The notes below the pieces were generated by a model that worked only from the letters and a program-made list of their open reading frames with translations, was not told the DNA's origin and did not search any database. Made by a program: the position numbers and the translations under genes. 61,534 nt of DNA from Candidatus Altimarinota bacterium (GTDB lineage Bacteria > Patescibacteriota > Gracilibacteria > UBA4473): NCBI GenBank assembly GCA_021734525.1, contig JAIPIW010000001.1, positions 1 through 61,534 of the forward strand, in the 5' to 3' direction. Positions 19,105-36,604 of this stretch are shown here, one piece after another. The stretch's first letter is position 1; every line of letters starts with the position of its first letter.

Positions 19105-19518
19105 TTAGCAACATTTTTTATATTCCGGAAAATTGTCTTTCACACATTCTAGTATCCATTGGGTTTCTGATTGTTTTTTAGGGCAGTGGTCTTTGCCGTA
19201 AACAATTAAGACTTCAATGAGACTAGTATTATTGTTTAGAGCGAATATAGTTCTGTTTCCAGATGCCTTGGGAGAGATATTTGTTCCGGCAACTCTGAAA
19301 TCTAATTTAAAGATTCCAATGCCTGTTTCTCGGGAAAATTTAATATTATCAATTAAATTTGTTTGTTGATACATTTGATAAGATCTTTGGAGGTTTAACT
19401 TGATAGTTTCTCTAGTTGGGAGCCATTGACCTTTGTATTTTTTAAAAAAAGATTTGCAGAAGTGCTTTTCTGCAAATCTGGAAAAATCGACCTTAAAATT
19501 TAAATCCTTAATAAACAT
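19105..19518 (-). CDS. Candidate ParE/RelE-like toxin of a PanAT pair
   Basis: Counted from the ATG at 19518 (another in-frame ATG lies at 19533) this is a 137-residue protein. The N-terminal half is basic and helical (FSRFAEKHFCKSFFKKYKGQW). The second half reads like a RelE/ParE-type beta core: GIFKLDFRVAGTNI, GNRTIFAL, LIEVLIVYGKDHCPKK. It overlaps the end of the Panacea-domain gene by 11 nt, the arrangement of Panacea antitoxin-toxin (PanAT) pairs. In those systems many unrelated toxins pair with one antitoxin fold. The toxin role is inferred from context; the fold is a weak match. Confidence 0.55.
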   Translation of the reverse strand: MFIKDLNFKVDFSRFAEKHFCKSFFKKYKGQWLPTRETIKLNLQRSYQMYQQTNLIDNIKFSRETGIGIFKLDFRVAGTNISPKASGNRTIFALNNNTSLIEVLIVYGKDHCPKKQSETQWILECVKDNFPEYKKCC

Positions 19519-20200
19519 CTTTCGGATCTTCATTGTTAATAAGTTCGTAGGGGATTACTTCTCCTTCCCTACATACCTTCCAAGGAATTTGATTATGTGC
19601 GAAATCAACAATTTCTTTAGTTCTAGCTTTTTTCCATTTTTGGCAAACTGCTTTTAATGTTTTTTGTTCATTTTCATTTAAAGTAGATTTTTCTGGTTCT
19701 TCGTTTAAAGATACCATCATGGCCTTACCACTGCTTTCTACGCAAACAGATTCATCAGTATCTAGGATATCAAAGAACTGGATGGCTACCGGTCCTTGAG
19801 CTAAGCGACGATATTCTAAACCAGAAATAGGAACTAGATATTTATAATAATGAGCAAAATCGCATAGATATACCAGTTTGGCTAATTTTGTTTTTGTTAT
19901 TTTTCCATCTTCATCTGCTCCGTATTTAATGCATTGGAGAATAATGTTGTGGAATTTTTTTAAGGATTGCTTACTAAAGTTTTGAGAATTAATTTTATTA
20001 TCTAAGGACAATTCTTCATCCAGAATAATAGATAGGGGAATATCGAAAATTTTGGAGATTTTTTTTAGTTCTCCAAGAGTGATATCTCTTTCTCCTTTTT
20101 CTACAGCAACTAAGGTTGGGCGAGATATTCCTATTTTTTTAGCTAATTCTTCTTGAGAAAGTTTGTTAGCTTTCCTGAGCTTGATAATAAGATTTTTCAT
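19508..20200 (-). CDS. XRE HTH plus Panacea (DUF4065) antitoxin
   Basis: This 230-residue protein has a Cro/C1-type helix-turn-helix (about 1-60: LRKANKLSQEELAKKIGISRPTLVAVEKGERDITLGELKKI). A Panacea/SocA-like domain follows (about 85-215) with KLAKLVYLCDFAHYYKYLVPISGLEYRRLAQGPV and a C-terminal WKKARTKEIVDFAHNQIPW. In PanAT systems this domain directly neutralises the toxin, and the fused HTH represses the operon. An 11-bp-arm palindrome upstream (20306-20328) is a candidate operator. The pair sits next to tRNA-Ile and recombinase remains, as expected for island-borne modules. Confidence 0.8.
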   Translation of the reverse strand: MKNLIIKLRKANKLSQEELAKKIGISRPTLVAVEKGERDITLGELKKISKIFDIPLSIILDEELSLDNKINSQNFSKQSLKKFHNIILQCIKYGADEDGKITKTKLAKLVYLCDFAHYYKYLVPISGLEYRRLAQGPVAIQFFDILDTDESVCVESSGKAMMVSLNEEPEKSTLNENEQKTLKAVCQKWKKARTKEIVDFAHNQIPWKVCREGEVIPYELINNEDPKDVY

Positions 20201-20454: not shown

Positions 20455-20476
<22 letters not shown>

Positions 20477-21808
20477 TTCTGGATTTTATCCCCTTTGAGC
20501 CATCTATCGAATGGCTTTTTGAGTGTCATAGACTGTACTTCCTTGCCATCGACGATGAGATTCAAGAGAAGGATTTCGGAAATTCGTCGTTTCTGATCAT
20601 TATTTGCTAAAGCCCAGTATTGGTGGGCATTTATTGATAGTTCAAGAAAATTCGTGAATGTTTTCAAATCATCATCGTGTTTTTGATTTATTGCCTTTTC
20701 CTCCTCTCGATGTGTTATCAATGTTTGTTTAAATTTTGCTTTCTTCTTTTCGTGAATCGCTTTTGAATCAGCATCGAACTCGCCCTGTCGTGACAAGGTG
20801 GCTTTGCTTACCTCTAAGTCCTCAAGCGCACGCTCTGCCTTGTGGATCATCTCGGTTACTGCCTTCTTTTTGTATTTTCTGTCACTTCGTTTCTTTTCAA
20901 TGAAGCGTCTCTGTCCTATCACAAACTGGTCGTACTCTTTTTCCGTAAGAAATAAGTTTTTTAGAATTTCTTCAATTGCCTCAAAGACAATCTCTGCCTT
21001 GATTCGTGGTTGGTTTGATCGTTTATCCTGACACTCGTAACCAAGTTGCATTTCTCGTCCTCCTGTTCGTCTTACGGGGCGTTCTGCTGGATAAAGGGGA
21101 TAACCCTCTACTGTTTGAATAAGACCGCTCAAAGGGTGCTGTCGTTTTGTTTTCTTTTTTCTCGGGATTTCCCCTCGCCCAATCTGCTGGCATCTTTGAA
21201 ATTCTTCCTCTGTGACAATAGAGATAAAAACACTTCCATCTGGTGCGGTCAGTTCTCGATAATCAATTCGTCGTTCGTTCTCTTTTCCTTTTTTGATAAC
21301 CTGAACTCCATAGTAAAACTCGTCTTTGAGGTAATGTCCTATGCTTGCTTTCAAGGGAGTGTTTCCATTCTTATTTGTAAGCCCTTTTCTTTTGAGGTGT
21401 TCTCGAATTGACTGAAGGGATTCTCCTTGGAGGCGCAGTAGAAAAATTTCTTTGATTGTTGGGAACTCGATTGGATGGGGTTTGGGGAACAAACTGCACT
21501 TCTCTGCATTTCTCCTGTCCTCACGAATTTTGTCATAGCCAAATTTCCCTCCATACATCAACGCTCCTTCCTTTTCTCGTTTGGTCATTCCTCGAAGAAC
21601 CACTTCGGATAATTTTTCCGAATATCCTTTTGCTCGAGCAAATTCCATGAAAAGATGTTCTTTTCCTGATCCATCGTTGTGAAATGGGTAATTCACAAAG
21701 AACATGTCTTTGATCATTCCCGCCTCAAGTCCATTTCGAGACAACCTGTCGGGATGCCAAGCAAGAATTGCATCTGCTCGTCTTTTCTTCGGATTTTGTA
21801 TTTTTAGT
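20455..21808 (-). pseudogene. Large serine recombinase, N-terminus lost at the IS
   Basis: The open frame runs from the IS boundary (21808) to the stop at 20455. It starts in the last part of a resolvase catalytic domain (KRRADAILAWHPDRLSRNGL). The Recombinase domain follows (GKFGYDKIREDRRNAEK... IREHLKRKGLTNKNGNTP), then a ribbon-like region and a long C-terminal coiled coil rich in Glu/Lys. The catalytic serine and about 60-90 N-terminal residues are missing, and no such coding lies on the far side of the IS. An ATG at 21744 could start a catalytically dead fragment. The last codons (GGHART, stop) lie inside tRNA-Ile, marking the attachment site. Confidence 0.8.
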
Positions 21809-22987
21809 CTAAAAGGACCCCAGTTTTTTTAGATGAGGAAAAGAAAACAGATTTTGTTGGTTAGGAGGAGAATGATTGCGGAAAACAAAAGGATTGAGAG
21901 CGGTCTTCATAAAAGAAATGAAGGAATCAATGTTCATGTTGAGAGATTTTACCTTGAGAAATCGTTTGTAAATTAAGAGAAGACCGCTCAATAAAGCTGT
22001 TGTAGATTGCAATAAGGATGCAAAAATCAAGGTAGAGATAATGGTCGCAAACTGGATAAGAGCTACAAGATTGAGAAGTTTTTGGTAATCAAGAACTCGT
22101 ACACTTTCTAATCCAAACTTAGTTTTTACATGTTTAAAAATGTTCTCTACGCCCCATCGTTCCAAATACATGGTTACTATTTTATTCTTAGAATAACGAT
22201 AATAATGAAGATTAGAGATGAGACGGATGGGCTCGTCATTATCTAAGTGTTTTTTTATAACCAGAACATATTCCATACTTGTTTCTGGTTTTTGGTTATA
22301 TCTGTTCATTAGAAATATTGGATATTTACCTGGTTTGAGATTTTTTACTTTAATTAGAACCCCGGTTTTCTTGAGAACAACCTGCCTATTTTCCTTTAAC
22401 CGAGCGATAAATCGCACTTTTAATTCTGACGACAAAAATCTAAAAAAGTTTTTGTCGTCATTTCCTCGATCAAAAACCCAGACACCTTTTTTATCAATCT
22501 TATTTGCAATTTTTGTCACAATTTCTCGTCGCAATTGGTTTTGGAAATACTTATCTCCATTATGTATCTTTAAACGGCAGAGCATGGTATTTATTCCAAC
22601 TCCATGAAGGGTGTATCCATTCGTTACTTTGCGTTTACTTCCGTCCCATACACGAGCAATCTTATCCATCTTCCTAGAGCATTCTTTGGATATATCGCTG
22701 AGATCATAAGCAATAATGGTATCATGCTTTATTTCTGGCTTTGCTCGTTTGAGAGCAAATTTCTCAACTTTCTTCGTCAAAACCACATTCCCTAAATGAT
22801 GAGCATATTTATCTCCTTGTTTTTTGGCACTGACTTCTTGGTTTTGGGCTAGATGTCGTAGTATGGGGCTTCCTTCTGTAAACAGTCCTCTTACTACTTC
22901 TGTAATTGCTTTCTGTTGTGGAACACTACAACCAGAAATAATAGAACGAAGGTTGTTTCTTATTGAATCATGGATATATTTATTCAT
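21809..22987 (-). CDS. IS4-family DDE transposase
   Basis: This 392-residue transposase has the RNase H-like DDE core: first Asp in IIAYDLSDISKE, second Asp in VWVFDRGNDDKNFF, and Glu in YLERWGVENIFKHVKTKFGLESVRV. The last stretch matches the IS4 Y-(2)-R-(3)-E-(6)-K signature exactly. The gene appears intact. Its final codons (LGSF, stop) are read from the left terminal repeat, so the coding region ends on the element's last bases. It has probably been active recently. Confidence 0.9.
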   Translation of the reverse strand: MNKYIHDSIRNNLRSIISGCSVPQQKAITEVVRGLFTEGSPILRHLAQNQEVSAKKQGDKYAHHLGNVVLTKKVEKFALKRAKPEIKHDTIIAYDLSDISKECSRKMDKIARVWDGSKRKVTNGYTLHGVGINTMLCRLKIHNGDKYFQNQLRREIVTKIANKIDKKGVWVFDRGNDDKNFFRFLSSELKVRFIARLKENRQVVLKKTGVLIKVKNLKPGKYPIFLMNRYNQKPETSMEYVLVIKKHLDNDEPIRLISNLHYYRYSKNKIVTMYLERWGVENIFKHVKTKFGLESVRVLDYQKLLNLVALIQFATIISTLIFASLLQSTTALLSGLLLIYKRFLKVKSLNMNIDSFISFMKTALNPFVFRNHSPPNQQNLFSFPHLKKLGSF

Positions 22988-23097
22988 GGAAAAAAGTTGG
23001 GTTAATTTTTAACTTTGCGTCAAAAATTCTACCCTCTTTTTTCCTTTGTTCTAGTACTTTTCCTTCACCCTCTTCTGAAAAACTGGGGTCTTTTTAG
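21809..23097 (-). mobile_element. IS4-type insertion sequence, 1289 bp
   Basis: The ends are inverted repeats: CTAAAAGGACCCCAGTTTTT on the left and, on the opposite strand, CTAAAAAGACCCCAGTTTTT on the right, with one mismatch in 20. One transposase gene fills the element. Flanking bases do not form a clear target duplication. Together with the missing front half of the recombinase, this suggests a deletion or recombination between IS copies after insertion. A solo copy of the right end occurs at 9975. Confidence 0.88.
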
Positions 23098-23107
23098 TGA
23101 TTCGCTG

Positions 23108-23135
23108 TTGACATTTATTAATTATCAGGTATAAT
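23108..23135 (+). promoter_or_regulatory. Consensus promoter giving a near-leaderless mRNA
   Basis: TTGACA (23108-23113) and TATAAT (23130-23135), both perfect, are 16 bp apart. The start codon of the MutS-like gene is at 23145, so transcription should begin only 2-4 nt before it, with no room for a Shine-Dalgarno site. The IS end lies 10 bp upstream of the -35 box, the same distance as at 9964/9975. Confidence 0.82.
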
Positions 23136-23144
23136 ATATAAGAA

Positions 23145-25934
23145 ATGTCAAATGAAAACGATTTATCTCCTTTAAAATCACCAGAAAACTTTCCTGGAGA
23201 TCAAAAGGGCTATTGTGAACACATTAAAGAGGAGATTGATTATCTTATTAGTGCTTTGGAGGAATTAGATCGAGCGAGAGAATTACATTATACAAATACA
23301 ATAGGACAGAAACAATATAATTATGCACTTAGCGATGTGAGGAGTGTTCCTGAGGAGTATGGGGGAGATCCCCACTTAGATGAAAGAGCTGAAAGAGCAT
23401 TGAAAATAGTGATGGATTATTTTGTTTGGCAATATGGAAAACAGCTTGGAGTCGATATAAAATCAAGACAATATTTGCGGTTTAGTGATATGAGTGCGGA
23501 TGATATGTTTAGAATATTAAGCGGTCATTTACCTGAATTATATAGAAAAATTGGTTTTAATATGTTTAAAAGAATGCAATCGGGGGAATTTTTAAGAGCC
23601 CTTTTTGTTTCTCATGAAACCCCTAAAGAATATGAGAGCGAATTAACAGGAGTGCTTAGTTATGTAAGAGAGAGACACTCAAAACATAGTGGAATTATTC
23701 CAGAATATGAGGTGGAATATAAATTTAATAAAGAAGCGCCTCCCAAGGAACGGCATTTCTCTAGCAATAGAGAAAATAAGTTTCCAATGGATTTAACGCA
23801 ACCTTCTAGTGAGTCTAGTGCAAGGCATCAGTATATATCTCTTAGTCTTGTAACGGCTCGTCCCCATACAGGAGAAGAAAAGAAGGAGCTATTGAGAAAT
23901 GATAAACCATATAGAGATGAGTATGAATCAAATATTATTTGGAAGGATTGTTTTGCTTATCAATGTTCCTTGAATCTTGCTTGCGAAACAATTAAACAAG
24001 CGAGATTTATCAAATGTGAAGGGATAATAGAAAAATCAGGGCTGAGTCATTGTCTTATAAGCGTAGATAAACCTTTAGAAATAAAACAATGTGAAATTAC
24101 AGAGGGAAAAATAGAGATAAAGAATGTATTAAAAGCAGAAAGCGTGTTTTTTCATGGAACGACTCTTGTATTAGAACAAGAAAACAAAGAAGTGAATTTT
24201 AAGTTATGTGATTTTAGTAATGCGAAAATCGATGACGAAAGGGATCTCTTGAATATTGCAAAGTGGAGTGAAAAATGTTTTTTTTCTCCTCAACAGATTG
24301 AAATTCTTACCCGCAATGGATTTAAAGAATTTGAAGAAAAAGGACATCAGAATGCACAAGAAGTATCTCGAAACTTAGAATCTCTTTTTGAAGCAGATTG
24401 TGATCATTTGGCAGGACCCGAGCATGAGGAAATTTTATCTACTCGAAATCAAAAAGTAATAGCGGATCTTTTAAATTTAGAAAGAAACAAAGCTTTAAAT
24501 CCCGATGGTGATTTAGCAGATGTTCCTTTATTTCGTACAGGGGGATTAGAAAAAGTGGGAGAAGGTATTTACCATAGTTCCCGGCAGAATAGGGACGAGG
24601 ACGGAATATATTATGCAGATGAAGTGAAAAAAGATCTGAGAATGTTGTTTCCTGTATTAGGAGGAGCAGAATCAAGAAGATTGGAAGCTCGAATAAAATT
24701 ATTTTCAGAACTTTTAACCTTGGAGAATATAGAGAATCCTCAACAGATTCTCAACTTTATTCAAAAAGGTGGCGAAAAATTTTGTGAAGCATTAGGACTT
24801 CATAAAGAGATTTTGAAATTAAAAATTAATTTTACTGATTTAGCAAAACACATAGAAGTGGGAAGAAGAGCACAATATAATAAACAGCAGATATACGTAA
24901 GTAACAATATTCCACTTGTGTTACAGACTTCAGAAGGAAAATTTGTTCCTTCGGATATTGCTTTTGATGGGAAACGAGTTATTCTTAAACGTCCTCCTCT
25001 TGCTCCAGAATCCAAAATAGACCCTTATAGTACGGATGAAGAAAAAAAGTCCTTACTGGAAAAAGGACCTTTCGGCACGCTTCCCATTTATTCTCAACTC
25101 CAAATTATAAAAAGACAATTACAAGTTTTAGGTAAGCGTTTGAGTTGGTATAGAGATTATTTAAAAGTGTTATTAAAGAGAAATAATTGTAAATTGCCTA
25201 TCTGTGAAAAAAATAGTAATGAAATTGTTTTAAGAGGATTTCATCCAAATCTTCTAGATATTTTAGAAGAAAGACGCAATAAAGGGGAAAAAGTTCCAGA
25301 CAAACCAGTCCCACAAGAGATTATTTTGACTCCGAACAAAAAACAGATTATTGCTGTTTCAGGATCAAATGCGGGAGGAAAGACAATGACTGTTGGCGGT
25401 ATTTTGCAAAATGTAGCACAAGCACAGGCTGGGGCACCGAGTACTGGAGAAGTAGAGGTCGGTTTAGAAGGAATGTATGACCATATTCTTTATATGTCTA
25501 CAGAACATGCTAGACCTGGAGAAGCGTCTAGTGGATTACAATCAAGAGCAGAAGTGATTAGAGAATTTATAAAGAAGATTGATTCTATTGCCAAGAAATC
25601 TCAAAGGGAAAAACTGCCTAATATCCTTATAGGATTAGATGAGATAGTTATGGATGCTACTAATCCCAATGATGCGCAACTTATAGAAGAAAATCTTATA
25701 AAACATCTAAGAGAAAGAACGGATATTAACGTTACCATTTTACTGGTATCACACCATACCCAAGTAATTAAGAATTTAAAATTGAAATTTCCAAACACAG
25801 AAATTCTTGTTCCTGATCTAAATCAAAAATATCATTTTATAGAAGGGAATGAACCAGCTATATCTGATCCAAGTGAAGTTTTTAAAGATTTTGGTTTAGA
25901 ATTTCTTTTAAAAAAAGATGAACAAAGAGATTAA
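23145..25934 (+). CDS. Large protein with C-terminal MutS-like ATPase
   Basis: This is a 929-residue protein. The last 200 residues form a MutS-family ABC ATPase: a clamp-to-ATPase junction EIVLRGFHPNLL, Walker A SGSNAGGKT (739-747; MutS has GPNMGGKS), Walker B ILIGLDEI (D832, E833), and an H-loop LLVSHHTQ (868-872). The first 700 residues are unfamiliar. They comprise a helical N-terminus (1-150), a beta-rich segment with Cys/Ile/Glu repeats (about 280-370, resembling a beta-solenoid), and a helical core (about 400-590). No MutS domain I mismatch-recognition motif (GxFYE) is seen. It sits between an IS and housekeeping genes. Mismatch repair, recombination control and defence are all possible. 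Confidence 0.7.
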   Translation: MSNENDLSPLKSPENFPGDQKGYCEHIKEEIDYLISALEELDRARELHYTNTIGQKQYNYALSDVRSVPEEYGGDPHLDERAERALKIVMDYFVWQYGKQLGVDIKSRQYLRFSDMSADDMFRILSGHLPELYRKIGFNMFKRMQSGEFLRALFVSHETPKEYESELTGVLSYVRERHSKHSGIIPEYEVEYKFNKEAPPKERHFSSNRENKFPMDLTQPSSESSARHQYISLSLVTARPHTGEEKKELLRNDKPYRDEYESNIIWKDCFAYQCSLNLACETIKQARFIKCEGIIEKSGLSHCLISVDKPLEIKQCEITEGKIEIKNVLKAESVFFHGTTLVLEQENKEVNFKLCDFSNAKIDDERDLLNIAKWSEKCFFSPQQIEILTRNGFKEFEEKGHQNAQEVSRNLESLFEADCDHLAGPEHEEILSTRNQKVIADLLNLERNKALNPDGDLADVPLFRTGGLEKVGEGIYHSSRQNRDEDGIYYADEVKKDLRMLFPVLGGAESRRLEARIKLFSELLTLENIENPQQILNFIQKGGEKFCEALGLHKEILKLKINFTDLAKHIEVGRRAQYNKQQIYVSNNIPLVLQTSEGKFVPSDIAFDGKRVILKRPPLAPESKIDPYSTDEEKKSLLEKGPFGTLPIYSQLQIIKRQLQVLGKRLSWYRDYLKVLLKRNNCKLPICEKNSNEIVLRGFHPNLLDILEERRNKGEKVPDKPVPQEIILTPNKKQIIAVSGSNAGGKTMTVGGILQNVAQAQAGAPSTGEVEVGLEGMYDHILYMSTEHARPGEASSGLQSRAEVIREFIKKIDSIAKKSQREKLPNILIGLDEIVMDATNPNDAQLIEENLIKHLRERTDINVTILLVSHHTQVIKNLKLKFPNTEILVPDLNQKYHFIEGNEPAISDPSEVFKDFGLEFLLKKDEQRD

Positions 25935-30356: not shown

Positions 30357-32012
30357 ATGAAAAAAATCTGTGCCGCATCCGGTCAAGAATTTGAAATCAC
30401 AGAAAGTGATATGAAATTCTATGAAAAGATAGGAGTCCCTATTCCTACTCTTTGTCCCGAAGAGCGTTTAAGAAGAAAGACGATTTTCGAAAATCAACGA
30501 AATTTATATTACCGAACCTGTGATGCTACAGGAAAGAAACTTCTTTCTAACTATTCTCCGGAGAAAAAAATACCAATTTATGGTATTGATTATTGGTTAT
30601 CTGATAAATGGGATCAGTTTGTAACTGGTCGAGATTTTGATTTCTCTAGGCCCTTTTTTGAGCAATTTGCAGAACTAGCAGAAGTTGCTCCAAGACCAGC
30701 ATTACAACGATTCCCAGAATATGATGAGAATTCTGATTTCACAAATTATGCTGGGAAAAATAAGAATTGTTATCTTATTTTTGATTCAGATAAGAACAGA
30801 GATTGTTATTATTCATACTCCATTAATTTATGTGAAAGCGTAGTGGATTGTTATCGTTGTGATAAATGTGAACTTTGTTATGAATGTACGGATTGTGCCC
30901 AGTGTTATGACAGTGGTTTTTTGCAAGATTGTGTTAATTGTCATGATTCTTTTTTCCTAAAAAGCTGTATAGGATGTTCTCATTGTTTTGGGTGTGTGAA
31001 TCTACGCAATAAGGAGTATTACTTCTTAAACCAAAAATGTACCAAAGAAGAATATGAAGAGAAATTAAAGGGAATATCTCTAGATAATTTTAATGAGCTC
31101 CAGAAAATGAGAACTCAATTTAAAGAATTTATGAAGAAATTTCCTCATAAATTCATGGAAGGAGTCCATAATGAAAATGTTTTAGGGAATTACTTAGTAA
31201 ACTGCAAAAACGCTTTTAATTGTTTTGATTCTCGTAATTTATGGGACTGTAAATACGTCTTACAAGCTTTTGACGATCTTAAAGATGCTATGGACTGTAA
31301 GGAATGTGGGGACAAAGCAGAACTTCTTTATGAATGTGATATTTGTGGTTATAACGTTCATTCTTTACGTTTTTGTTCTCACTGTTTTGGAGTTACTCAG
31401 TCAGATTATTCTTATTATTTGCGGAACTCTCAAAACTGTTTCGGATGTGTTGGGCTGCATAACGCTAAATATTGCATTCTTAACAAGCAATACAGCAAAG
31501 AGGAATATGAAGAACTAAAAGAGAAAATTATTGAACACATGAAGAAAACCAATGAGTGGGGAGAATTTTTCCCCATGAAACTCTCTCCTTTTGGTTACAA
31601 CGAAACCATTGCCCAAGATAATTATCCTTTAACTAAAGAAGAAGTATTGAGTAAGGAATGGAAATGGAAGGATGAAGAATTAGGAACTAAATATGATGGT
31701 CCTAAGTACGAAATTCCGGAGAATATAGATGACGTAGATGATGACATTTTAGATAAGATTTTAACCTGTGAAAAAACAGGGAAAAATTATCGGATTGTAA
31801 GACCGGAATTAGAGTTCTATCGGAAGATGAATTTACCAATCCCAAGAGTCTGTCCGGAAGCAAGAGAGGATGGGCGTAGAAAACTACGTAATCCTAGAAA
31901 ACTTTATGATCGGAAATGTGATGAATGTAGTGTAGGATTCCATACTACTTATGCTCCGGATCGTCCGGAAAAGATTTACTGTGAAAAGTGTTATTCCGAA
32001 TGTGTAGACTAA
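30357..32012 (+). CDS. Cysteine-rich repeat protein, copy 1
   Basis: This 551-residue soluble protein has 39 cysteines by hand count. Both ends carry a related zinc-ribbon-like module: residues 1-60 (CAASGQEFEITESDMKFYEK, then PTLCPEERLRRK and the RTC motif) and about 475-545 (CEKTGKNYRIVRPELEFYRK, then RVCPEAR, DRKCDEC and YCEKCY). In between, residues 140-215 and 290-370 are runs of x-x-C and Y-x-C at 2-6 residue spacing, suggesting a cysteine-lined solenoid or metal stack. Each run ends in a CFGC-nLrN block followed by a Tyr-rich and KEEYEE-type helix. A paralogue follows after 1 nt. I know the family only as uncharacterised; function unknown. Confidence 0.7.
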   Translation: MKKICAASGQEFEITESDMKFYEKIGVPIPTLCPEERLRRKTIFENQRNLYYRTCDATGKKLLSNYSPEKKIPIYGIDYWLSDKWDQFVTGRDFDFSRPFFEQFAELAEVAPRPALQRFPEYDENSDFTNYAGKNKNCYLIFDSDKNRDCYYSYSINLCESVVDCYRCDKCELCYECTDCAQCYDSGFLQDCVNCHDSFFLKSCIGCSHCFGCVNLRNKEYYFLNQKCTKEEYEEKLKGISLDNFNELQKMRTQFKEFMKKFPHKFMEGVHNENVLGNYLVNCKNAFNCFDSRNLWDCKYVLQAFDDLKDAMDCKECGDKAELLYECDICGYNVHSLRFCSHCFGVTQSDYSYYLRNSQNCFGCVGLHNAKYCILNKQYSKEEYEELKEKIIEHMKKTNEWGEFFPMKLSPFGYNETIAQDNYPLTKEEVLSKEWKWKDEELGTKYDGPKYEIPENIDDVDDDILDKILTCEKTGKNYRIVRPELEFYRKMNLPIPRVCPEAREDGRRKLRNPRKLYDRKCDECSVGFHTTYAPDRPEKIYCEKCYSECVD

Positions 32013-32013
32013 T

Positions 32014-33663
32014 ATGAAAAAAATATGTGCACTGTCCGGAAAAGAATTTGAGATTACCGAAAAGGATCTCAAGTTCTATGAAAAAATGGGCGTACCCGTT
32101 CCTACTCTTTGTCCAGAAGAAAGACAACGAAGGAGAATTGCTTATCGGAATTTTAGGTCTCTTTATCGTCGTAAATGTAGTGCTACCGGTAAGATGATTA
32201 TTAGTATGTATCATGAGGACCAGCCTTTTTCGGTATACGAAAATGGTTATTGGTGGTCAGATAAATGGACTGCTCTAGATTATTCTCAAGATTTTGATTT
32301 CTCTCGTCCTTTCTTTGAACAATACCAAGAGTTAGCTCAAAAAGTTCCTCGATTTGCCACAGCAAATGTAAATTGCGAAAATTCACAGTATTCTAATTTT
32401 GCTTGGAGAGCGAGAAATTGTTACTTGGTTTTTGGGTGTGTGCGTGATGAAGATTGTTTATATGGACATATTGTTTGGGATTGTAAGGACTGTACAGACA
32501 ATCTGTATCTCTTTCGTTGTGAATGGTGTAGCAACTGTACGGATTGTATAGATTGTTACAACACTCATTTTTCTACAGAATGTGCTCATTGCACAGACAG
32601 TTATTTTCTACATGATTGTCGTAGTTGTCGGAATTGTTTTGGGTGTGTGAATTTACGTAATAAGCAGTATTACTTTTTTAATAAACCTCACACTAAAGAA
32701 GAATATGAAGAGAAATTAAAACAATTCTTACCTCTTACTCATACTACTATTGAGCAGGGTCTTAAATGGCTAGAGGAAACAAAGAAAACTAAAGCAATTT
32801 TTCCTCCTTATTTTGGTGTTCAAAATGAGGATGTTTCTGGAGATCACTTATATGAATGTAAAAACATAACTAATAGTTTTGATGCTAAGCGTGGGGAAGA
32901 ATCTAAACATCTTTATACCTCCTATGAACAAATTCATTCCCAGGACATTTCCTTTACCGGAGACCAGACTAATTTTTGCTACAATTGCCTAACGATTGGA
33001 AATAACCAAGATCTAATCTGTTGTCATAAATGTTTTCAGGGACACTCGCTTTCTTACTGTGAATTTTGTTATTCCTGTCATGATTGTTTTGGTTGTAATG
33101 GTCTGCGAAACGCCAGTTATTGTATTTTTAATAAACAATATTCCAAAGAAGAATATGCGGAATTAAAGAATAAGATCATTACTTACATGAAAGAAACTAG
33201 AGAATGGGGTGAATTTTTTCCTATAGGACATTCTCCATTTGCCTACAACGAAGCGATTGTGAATGAATATCTTCCTTTAACAAAAGAAGAGGTGTTTGCA
33301 CGTGGTTTAAAATGGCGGGGTGATCAACCGTCTTTGGAGACTTACGAAGGACCAAAATATGATGTACCGGGAAAAATTGCGGATACCGATGATGATATTT
33401 TGCAGAAAGTTCTGGTGTGTCAGCGTACTGGAAAAAATTATCGTGTTACCAAACAAGAACTTATTTTTTATAGGAAGATGGGTTTGCCGGTGCCTTTACT
33501 TTGTCCAAGTATTCGTCATGAAGAACGAATGAAAATCCGTAATGCTAGAAAACTATATGAGAGAAAATGTGATAATTGTGGCGTAGATATTGAGACCACT
33601 TTTACACTAGAAAGACCAGAAACGGTCTACTGTGAGAAATGTTATTTGGAATATGTGAATTAG
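32014..33663 (+). CDS. Cysteine-rich repeat protein, copy 2
   Basis: This 549-residue paralogue of the preceding protein has 38 cysteines by hand count and is collinear with copy 1 over its full length. It has the same N-terminal module (CALSGKEFEITEKDLKFYEK with PTLCPEERQRRR), two central cysteine runs (one with CEWCSNCTDCIDCY) and the same C-terminal module (CQRTGKNYRVTKQELIFYRK). Spacing of most Cys-x-x-Cys pairs is kept while other residues have drifted, which argues for structural metal binding. The two genes are separated by one base, so they are co-transcribed and may form a hetero-oligomer. No catalytic motif is recognisable. Confidence 0.7.
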   Translation: MKKICALSGKEFEITEKDLKFYEKMGVPVPTLCPEERQRRRIAYRNFRSLYRRKCSATGKMIISMYHEDQPFSVYENGYWWSDKWTALDYSQDFDFSRPFFEQYQELAQKVPRFATANVNCENSQYSNFAWRARNCYLVFGCVRDEDCLYGHIVWDCKDCTDNLYLFRCEWCSNCTDCIDCYNTHFSTECAHCTDSYFLHDCRSCRNCFGCVNLRNKQYYFFNKPHTKEEYEEKLKQFLPLTHTTIEQGLKWLEETKKTKAIFPPYFGVQNEDVSGDHLYECKNITNSFDAKRGEESKHLYTSYEQIHSQDISFTGDQTNFCYNCLTIGNNQDLICCHKCFQGHSLSYCEFCYSCHDCFGCNGLRNASYCIFNKQYSKEEYAELKNKIITYMKETREWGEFFPIGHSPFAYNEAIVNEYLPLTKEEVFARGLKWRGDQPSLETYEGPKYDVPGKIADTDDDILQKVLVCQRTGKNYRVTKQELIFYRKMGLPVPLLCPSIRHEERMKIRNARKLYERKCDNCGVDIETTFTLERPETVYCEKCYLEYVN

Positions 33664-34068: not shown

Positions 34069-34340
34069 TGAAATATTTAATTAGATTTTCCAAGAAAGGA
34101 AAGGAGAGTATGTTTCTTCTGCCCAAAGATACCCAATCGAGGATTGGAAAAAAATTGCAATATTTCATGTTGGCAGAAAATCCTTTTTTCTATGCAGAAA
34201 GGTTGATTAATAGGCCAAATGAGTATAAATTTCGGGTTGGAAATTATCGGATTATTTTTACAACAAAAGAAGTCGAAAATGTTTTAATTTTGCTGGTTCT
34301 AAGAGTAGGACATCGGCGAGACATCTATAATAAAAAATGA
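34068..34340 (+). CDS. RelE/ParE-like toxin partnered with AbrB
   Basis: This 90-residue protein has a RelE/ParE core: YLIRFSKKGKESMFLL, a helical hairpin, then RPNEYKFRVGNYRIIFTTKEVENVLILLVLRVGHRRDIYNK. The F-R-x-G-x-Y-R and GHR-x-x-Y-N-K motifs are those of the ParE/RelE group. Its end overlaps the start of the VirD4-like ATPase gene by 4 nt (ATGA), so toxin and ATPase are probably translated from one mRNA. Confidence 0.78.
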   Translation: MKYLIRFSKKGKESMFLLPKDTQSRIGKKLQYFMLAENPFFYAERLINRPNEYKFRVGNYRIIFTTKEVENVLILLVLRVGHRRDIYNKK

Positions 34341-36604
34341 AGACATACTTAATTATTGTCCCTCAGTACAAGCCAGAAACAGTACTAGCTAAAACCGCTC
34401 GTCAGGAGAATATGCGTAATGCGGAAAAGTTCATGGATGTTTTTGAAAACCTCCATGAATCCTTAGCAGGTAAAAAGATTTCTTTTGAGATGATTGTGTT
34501 TGGGGAAAACATTGGTTTTTGTTTTTCGGCAGATGAAGCTACCTGTGAGGTGGTAGCTGGACAAATCTATGCCATGGATATGGATGCCGACATTGTCGAA
34601 ATTCCAGACTTTACAACGAGGATTAAAAAATCTACTAAATTCTACTGGTCAGAATTAGGACTAGAACGAAATGATCTGTTTCCCTTAAAAGAATTTCCAG
34701 AATTTGAAAGTGATTCCTTGAGTAGTGTTTTAAACGTACTTTCTAGTGGAACGCCAGGTGAAGGAATTTGGATTCAGATTGTTTGTGAAGCAGAAAGAGA
34801 TACTGGCTGGCATCATTTTATTCTGGGTTGGCGCAAGAGATTAGATAAAATTAGACAGATTTTTAGAACGAAATACTGGTTTAAGAAGGGGGTAGCACAG
34901 GGCTTTCGAGAAAAAATACATGATAAGGTGACCGGTCGACTCTTCCGGACCAATATTAGAATAGCTACTCTAGCAGAAGATCCTTCTAAGAATCCCAAAT
35001 CTAAGATTCAGGCAGTCCTAGGAGGAATGCAGGGATTTAATACTTTGGATTTTAACCGTATTAAGCCAAGTAAAATTTCCAATAATGCTGTTACTGGGGT
35101 AAAAAGGTTTAGATCCCGCACCTTAAAAGGCGGATTTTTATTATCTACTAAAGAACTAACTACCCTTTTTCATCTGCCTAATGAACAAAAGGTTCCCAAT
35201 CTGATTCATGTTCTTTCTCGTCGAGCAGAACCACCGTCAGATTTACCGGTAGATAAAAAAGATAAAGAAATTTCTTTCTTTGGAGAAACAAATTTCCACG
35301 GCAAAAAGATTCCTTTTGGAGTGAAACGTTCTGATCGCAGAAGACATCTATATACTGTAGGAAAATCTGGTAGTGGAAAGTCTAAATTACTAGAACTATT
35401 GGTCAAAAACGATATTGAAAATGGTCATGGAGTAGGAATCTTAGATCCCCACGGAGATTTAGTAGATAACATCCTAAAATGTATTCCAGAAAATAGGATT
35501 AAGGATGTTGTTCTTTTCGATCCTTCGGATCTAAATTTCCCCGTGTGTTTTAATCCTCTAGCGGATGTTCCAGCAGAATTAAAAATCAGAGTAACAATTG
35601 GGTTTATAGAAATATTTAAGAAGCTTTTTGGAGCTAATTGGACCCCTCGTCTAGAACACGTTTTACGGTATACAACTTTAGCGTTACTGGATACTCCTGG
35701 AACAACAATTCTTTCTATTTTGAAGATGCTTTCGGATAAGAATTATCGTCAAACCATTGTGCGGAATATTCAGGATAATGTGGTTAAGAACTTCTGGGTT
35801 AATGAATTTGCTGGTTGGTCAGAAAAATTCGATAACGAAGCCATTACTCCACTATTAAACAAAGTGGGACAATTTGTTTCCACTAACATGATTCGTAATA
35901 TCGTGGGACAACCAGAAAATAAAGTGGAGTTTCGGGACATTATGGACGGAAAAAAGATTTTACTCATGAAAGTTTCCAAAGGAATTTTAGGAGAAGAAAA
36001 TGCAGCCCTTATGGGAGCTTTAGCTATTACTAAAATTTACCAGGCCGCCATGAGTAGAGCCGATACCGAAGAAAAAGAACGAGTAGATTTCTATTTCTAC
36101 GTTGATGAATTTCAGAACTTTGCGACAGATACTTTTGATGAAATATTATCCGAAGCTCGTAAATACCGACTAAACATCACCTTAGCCCACCAGTTTATGG
36201 GTCAGTTATCTAAAAAGATATTAACCACGGTCTTTGGTAATGTTGGTTCCATGGTCACTTTCCGGGTTGGGGGAGAGGACGCTAAGATATTAGAGGCAGA
36301 ATATACACCTCGGGCTAAAGAAAGGGATATTATCAATCTAGCCATGCGTAATTTCTACTGCAAGATGTCTATTGATGGTGAGGTAAGAGAAGCCTTTTCT
36401 GGCAGAACCTTAAACATGTCTTTCCCTAAGGATGATTTTTCTAAGGAGTGTGTAGAACATTCTCGTAAAACCTATTCCAGACCTCTGAAAGAAGTAGACG
36501 ATATTCTCCAACAGTGGGAAGAAGGAAAGTACGATCCTAAGTCCAAAGGGAAAGGAAAAAGTTCTTTAGACGAAGAAGTGGAGTTTAATGAGCCAATAGT
36601 CTAA
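34337..36604 (+). CDS. VirD4/TraD/HerA-like membrane-type ATPase
   Basis: This 755-residue protein has an N-terminal half (1-310) of mixed alpha/beta content with no clear membrane helices. A RecA-like motor domain follows: GVKRSDRRRHLYTVGKSGSGKSKLLELL (Walker A near 345), GHGVGILDPHGDLVDNIL, FNPLADV, a Walker B-like DFYFYVDEFQNFATDTF, and ITLAHQFMGQL. This is the T4SS coupling-protein/DUF87 pattern. Such ATPases pump DNA through conjugation channels or help pilus and DNA uptake. No other type IV secretion gene is in the window. It starts 4 nt inside the RelE-like gene. Confidence 0.82.
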   Translation: MKTYLIIVPQYKPETVLAKTARQENMRNAEKFMDVFENLHESLAGKKISFEMIVFGENIGFCFSADEATCEVVAGQIYAMDMDADIVEIPDFTTRIKKSTKFYWSELGLERNDLFPLKEFPEFESDSLSSVLNVLSSGTPGEGIWIQIVCEAERDTGWHHFILGWRKRLDKIRQIFRTKYWFKKGVAQGFREKIHDKVTGRLFRTNIRIATLAEDPSKNPKSKIQAVLGGMQGFNTLDFNRIKPSKISNNAVTGVKRFRSRTLKGGFLLSTKELTTLFHLPNEQKVPNLIHVLSRRAEPPSDLPVDKKDKEISFFGETNFHGKKIPFGVKRSDRRRHLYTVGKSGSGKSKLLELLVKNDIENGHGVGILDPHGDLVDNILKCIPENRIKDVVLFDPSDLNFPVCFNPLADVPAELKIRVTIGFIEIFKKLFGANWTPRLEHVLRYTTLALLDTPGTTILSILKMLSDKNYRQTIVRNIQDNVVKNFWVNEFAGWSEKFDNEAITPLLNKVGQFVSTNMIRNIVGQPENKVEFRDIMDGKKILLMKVSKGILGEENAALMGALAITKIYQAAMSRADTEEKERVDFYFYVDEFQNFATDTFDEILSEARKYRLNITLAHQFMGQLSKKILTTVFGNVGSMVTFRVGGEDAKILEAEYTPRAKERDIINLAMRNFYCKMSIDGEVREAFSGRTLNMSFPKDDFSKECVEHSRKTYSRPLKEVDDILQQWEEGKYDPKSKGKGKSSLDEEVEFNEPIV

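Follow-up and report, generated by a model that had tools for sequence, protein, structure and literature searches.

The window, meaning the whole stretch of DNA analysed here (61,534 nucleotides of contig JAIPIW010000001.1 from a Candidatus Altimarinota bacterium), carries on its forward strand a gene for a 929-residue protein with an ATG start (Table 1). Open reading frame analysis gave the same coordinates as the first-pass annotation, and the perfect promoter claimed there is indeed present. The start codon follows this promoter at a distance of 10 nt and no Shine-Dalgarno sequence precedes it, so the mRNA is probably leaderless. The relative in genome G637, one of two described below, likewise combines a strong promoter (TTGACA-17-TACAAT) with the lack of an evident Shine-Dalgarno sequence. 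The imperfect inverted repeat that reaches from the -35 box to the start codon is a possible operator, or may have arisen by chance.

Table 1. Positions in the window of the gene, its encoded regions and motifs, and the adjoining upstream features.
Feature	Position	Strand	Evidence
929-aa MutS-superfamily ATPase gene	23145..25934	+	ORF; two colinear full-length homologues (888 and 866 aa)
Residues 1-180, family-specific, probably helical N-terminal region	23145..23684	+	Conserved in three of three members
Residues 261-362, beta-rich, solenoid/pentapeptide-like	23925..24230	+	Alignment; Pentapeptide_3 E=0.21; low-confidence strands
Residues 366-645, family-specific middle region	24240..25079	+	Family alignment, profile comparison, PDB profile search
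Residues 646-705, last lever-like helix and clamp-ATPase border (EIVLRGFHPNLL)	25080..25259	+	Profile matches to MutS1; hhalign to MutS2
Residues 690-925, MutS-type ABC ATPase domain	25212..25919	+	NCBIfam, hhalign, structural model
Walker A SGSNAGGKT, residues 739-747	25359..25385	+	Family alignment
ABC signature region, residues 792-802	25518..25550	+	Family alignment; aligns with MutS2 'LSTFS'
Walker B LDEI, residues 831-834, invariant	25635..25646	+	Family alignment
H-loop SHH, residues 869-871	25749..25757	+	Family alignment
Sigma-70-type promoter TTGACA-16-TATAAT	23108..23135	+	12/12 consensus match, only one in the region
Imperfect inverted repeat, 18-nt arms, 83%	23108..23151	.	Spans -35 box to start codon
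IS4-like insertion sequence	21809..23097	-	20-bp terminal inverted repeats (95%), 392-aa DDE transposase
Serine recombinase remnant	20455..21808	-	Pfam Recombinase domain only; frame runs into IS edge

Genomic setting of the gene

The IS4-like element is the upstream neighbour of the gene and no part of it. The serine recombinase beyond it has had its 5′ end cut off by the element, and its catalytic N-terminus was not found on the other side. The gene had been placed in an island next to a tRNA-Ile attachment site. Both the insertion sequence and the tRNA-Ile are indeed present, but the 3′ end of the tRNA-Ile occurs only once in the window, and its role as an attachment site is not supported. 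The locus has neither the intact integrase nor the duplicated tRNA 3′ end of a tRNA-targeted island, and the codon usage of the gene is host-like (the recombinase is the outlier); the island setting is therefore not supported. Downstream, a GldG-like gene is present in 6 of 21 genomes (close relatives, own genome included), and since it is absent from most close relatives, this side is not a conserved housekeeping setting.

Several other features of the window and genome were recorded. An HTH-Panacea (SocA-like) protein overlaps a 142-residue protein without matches next to the tRNA-Ile (19105-20200, minus strand), a probable Panacea-type toxin-antitoxin pair. Two Cys-rich proteins of about 550 residues are encoded in tandem at 30357-33663 (plus strand), the first of them without a Pfam match; Cys-rich proteins of similar appearance are found next to the G637 homologue (L190:11308-12324) and also in L208:840-2660. 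A 755-residue conjugation-type coupling ATPase (T4SS-DNA_transf; 34337-36604, plus strand) lies just downstream of genes for a 93-residue protein and a ParE-like toxin. Elsewhere in the genome, a 22-bp exact copy of the IS4-like terminal sequence is present at G000:C30:3560-3581 as a lone IS end, the rest of the element being absent. The same contig, C30, encodes a 965-residue valyl-tRNA synthetase (L210:363-3257, minus strand) whose catalytic tRNA-synt_1 domain is interrupted at residues 375-517 by a histidine phosphatase domain (His_Phos_1, E=8e-26).

Domain organisation of the 929-residue protein

Residues 678-880 matched the NCBIfam models for KamC (E=7.6e-8, 31.6 bits, curated cut-off 300 bits) and MutS2 (E=2.5e-6, 26.1 bits, curated cut-off 400 bits). 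Both matches fall far under the curated cut-offs, yet the signal for a MutS-like ATPase is far beyond chance. No Pfam MutS model matched the protein. Alignment of the ATPase to MutS2 with hhalign gave probabilities of 97% (five sequences) and 94% (66 sequences) over about residues 678-878, and a profile search of the PDB gave a weak match to Msh3 (E=0.009). The border sequence EIVLRGFHPNLL, whose likeness to the MutS clamp-ATPase junction had been pointed out from the sequence, aligned with '..RHPLL' of MutS2, and similarity to the MutS1 proteins of class members begins in the lever-like helix that precedes it. At its other end the domain stops at the MutS 'GLP' position, without the following helix-turn-helix region, which helps MutS to dimerise.

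In the alignment of the three members (the window protein and the relatives in genomes G637 and G617), N742, G745, K746 and T747 of Walker A, S796, G797 and R801 of the signature region, and D832 and E833 of Walker B are invariant. An ABC ATPase of the MutS superfamily type, with Walker A, the Walker B DE pair and the signature serine, is thus present. Walker A itself reads SGSNAGGKT in the window protein, TAKNAAGKT in G637 and TGPNTISGKT in G617, so that it is non-standard in both relatives and one residue longer in G617. The H-loop reads SHH in the window protein and SHN and SPD in the relatives, and its histidine is therefore not conserved; together with the non-standard Walker A sequences, this means that catalysis could be altered in some members. 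Walker B of the window protein is followed by 'TNP' (LDEIVMDATNP). Judged by these matches and by the catalytic residues kept in three divergent proteins, the C-terminal part is a MutS-type ABC ATPase, and the NCBIfam and hhalign results bear out the first-pass annotation on this point.

Residues 1 to about 645 matched no MutS domain and nothing in Pfam, the PDB or PADLOC. Profile comparison of residues 1-366 with 18 MutS1 proteins from relatives gave a probability of at most 0.4%, and no Pfam match was obtained, which agrees with the proposed lack of a mismatch-recognition domain. Residues 366-692 gave 0.3% against 66 MutS2 proteins and at most 1.1% against the MutS1 or MutS2 core. Outside the ATPase, domains I and II, core, clamp, KOW and SMR were undetectable with Pfam and profiles. 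PDB profile searches of the residues upstream of the ATPase gave nothing or chance-level matches; a match of the middle region to Argonaute (E=0.15) was rejected as chance. Searching with the N-terminus by itself returned only chance-level matches, some with stop codons.

Pairwise identity among the three members is 17-49% over residues 1-180, where helices appear only in a low-confidence single-sequence model. Residues 261-362 contain the conserved motif 'ES.FFHGT.I...CDFS.A.I', of which FF.GT and CDFS.A.I are invariant. One member gave a weak Pentapeptide_3 match (E=0.21) in this region and strands were predicted there at low confidence in a single-sequence model; the beta-solenoid-like part described earlier is thus only suggested by the motif and this match. 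The middle region includes a variable insert at about residues 581-645. Single-sequence AlphaFold2 modelling of the whole protein gave a pLDDT of 36.5 and was unusable. A model of residues 425-929 built with 23 MutS2 rows reached moderate to good quality in the ATPase alone (blocks up to 89). This model matched MutS and MutS2 structures in the PDB with a probability of 1.00, a result that is partly circular because MutS2 sequences were present in its alignment.

Relatives and their distribution

Relatives were searched for in 353 genomes of the same class. Two were found, in G637 (888 residues, 42% identical over its length) and G617 (866 residues, 27%), and both align colinearly with the window protein from end to end. 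Conservation extends throughout and peaks in the ATPase, with 36-59% identity over residues 731-870. The family is thus present in three of about 350 genomes of the class; these belong to three different families, whose other listed genomes do not have the gene. A profile built from the three members brought up no other full-length protein of the family in 341 class genomes, where most other matches were the ATPase border of ordinary MutS1. No further member was found among 148 relatives of each of G637 and G617, and no relative in the genomes of 60 relatives, a 380-genome sample of the phylum or 20 genomes of the order. Peptide-pattern searches of viral and genome contigs, and tblastn searches of phages and plasmids, were also negative. 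The one plasmid match and the better of the weak tblastn matches were ordinary MutS2, as were the matches to a Walker A DNA pattern in genome contigs, which were used as comparison sequences. In a fourth genome (G627:C28), a 72-residue open reading frame adjoining recX and recA (L204:1405-1620) matches the C-terminal tail of the family in its last 36 or so residues, and may be what remains of a degraded copy.

Maximum-likelihood analysis of ATPase domains placed the three members together in one clade (100/100 support), which sits outside MutS1 and MutS2 on a long branch. A KamC-model search of the host genome found only two MutS-type ATPases, a separate MutS1 (G000:C37) and the 929-residue protein. 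In-frame TGA codons in the MutS of one class member, G028, together with CPR-type proteins encoded in the window, suggest a Gracilibacteria-like Patescibacterium as the host. The family results support a subfamily of the MutS superfamily that is rare and had not been modelled before; the protein is new in the sense of a new subfamily, and the superfamily to which it belongs was already known.

The neighbours of the G637 homologue include genes for a CCA-adding enzyme (tRNA nucleotidyltransferase) and PrsW, and those of the G617 homologue genes for PBP2 and a pectinacetylesterase. No neighbours are common to the relatives, which agrees with the earlier description of a single stand-alone gene, and the genomic position is not conserved. 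The opposite outcome, an N-terminus of ordinary MutS core and lever domains with homologues in conserved housekeeping positions, thus appears to be absent both by profile and by position. Ten neighbours of the two homologues were tested with PADLOC without a match. The survey gave no sign of the defence-island enrichment that had been anticipated, and the proposed defence setting was not supported by the relatives, which lie beside ordinary genes.

Proposed function and competing explanations

The closest known systems share the motor and differ in what is attached to it. MutS2 (TIGR01069) has the MutS-type ABC ATPase and the clamp-ATPase border and also lacks domains I and II, but the 929-residue protein scores 26 bits against its 400-bit cut-off, falls in a separate clade, has no detectable core/clamp, KOW, SMR or post-ATPase coiled coil, and carries 645 novel N-terminal residues. 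KamC (NF052383), the reactivase of lysine 5,6-aminomutase, resembles it in having the ATPase at the C-terminal side and no SMR; its model has 508 positions against 929 residues. MutS1/MSH mismatch-repair proteins share the Walker motifs and the preceding lever-like helix, whereas their domains I-III are undetectable here and a MutS1 is encoded separately in the genome. Many prokaryotic MutS subfamilies that lack domains I and II are uncharacterised, and new domains are often gained by MutS proteins (PMC12292046). These subfamilies, compared by description only, likewise combine a MutS ATPase with other domains, and they make the present protein a new subfamily within a known kind.

The reading preferred here, given about even weight, is that of a self-contained ATPase of a rare MutS subfamily whose N-terminus binds a nucleic-acid or nucleoprotein target. 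In front of the ATPase, about 645 family-specific residues take the place of the MutS recognition and core domains. By analogy with the superfamily, the protein would dimerise through the ATPase and sandwich ATP between Walker A and B of one subunit and its partner's signature serine, ATP binding and hydrolysis opening and closing a clamp. The helical and solenoid-like N-terminal regions may, with less support, bind structured nucleic acid or nucleoprotein, candidate targets being branched DNA, or RNA or the ribosome as for MutS2, and the motor would remodel or release what is bound. The protein would work alone, from its own promoter, and be dispensable. The main reason for preferring such a target is that nucleic acids or nucleoproteins are what most characterised MutS motors work on. 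One of these is MutS2, which lacks domains I and II and uses its ATPase to split collided ribosomes (PMC10897456). The missing post-ATPase helix-turn-helix counts against this explanation, as do the unconserved H-loop histidine, the non-standard Walker A of the relatives and the failure to identify a nucleic-acid-binding domain.

The substrate may instead be a protein, because the best-scoring ATPase model, KamC, describes a protein reactivase. In this main rival, rather unlikely overall, the N-terminal region would hold a protein or enzyme complex for the motor to reactivate or disassemble. The KamC E-value is lower than that for MutS2, the 'TNP' after Walker B is reminiscent of reactivases (the KamC-like L034 sequence has 'RGTNP'), and no nucleic-acid-binding domain was identified in the protein. 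The likeness is nevertheless confined to the ATPase and stays far below the cut-off, two of the three family members have no KamC match at all, and neither an aminomutase nor any other common neighbour accompanies the genes.

An anti-phage or anti-mobile-element protein, which would detect foreign nucleic acid with its N-terminus and set off a response through the ATPase, is an improbable alternative. It would suit the very patchy occurrence, the strong divergence, the single-gene unit, the possible 3′-end relic in the fourth genome, and the insertion sequence, recombinase remnant and HTH-Panacea gene nearby. Against it, the family gave no PADLOC match above chance (best 0.012, in one member), no effector domain was found, no member occurred in the phages, plasmids or viral contigs searched, and both the relatives' neighbours and the host-like codon usage look ordinary; patchiness is its only positive evidence. 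Least probable of all is a highly diverged MutS2 that has lost its tail, keeps an unrecognisable core and lever, and does the ribosome or recombination work of MutS2 where MutS2 is absent. The ATPase is nearest to MutS2 among the widespread families, and the KamC-model search showed only a MutS1 and this protein in the host genome. The three-member profile, however, shows no core, KOW and SMR are absent, some 400 residues are added at the N-terminus, the ATPase clade lies outside both MutS1 and MutS2, and the family is much too rare to have taken over a general function.

MutS motors are known to work in mismatch repair, recombination control, ribosome splitting and enzyme reactivation. The boldest reading, and an unlikely one, is a MutS-powered sensor whose solenoid-bearing N-terminus recognises a target beyond mismatch repair, recombination and ribosome rescue, such as foreign nucleic acid or a specific enzyme; if true, the MutS motor would gain a new biological role. 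The family is extremely patchy within a single class of reduced-genome bacteria. With three sequences and a set of invariant residues the family is now defined and can be modelled and tested, and a motor joined to about 645 residues unlike described domains would represent a new use of the MutS motor and possibly new folds.
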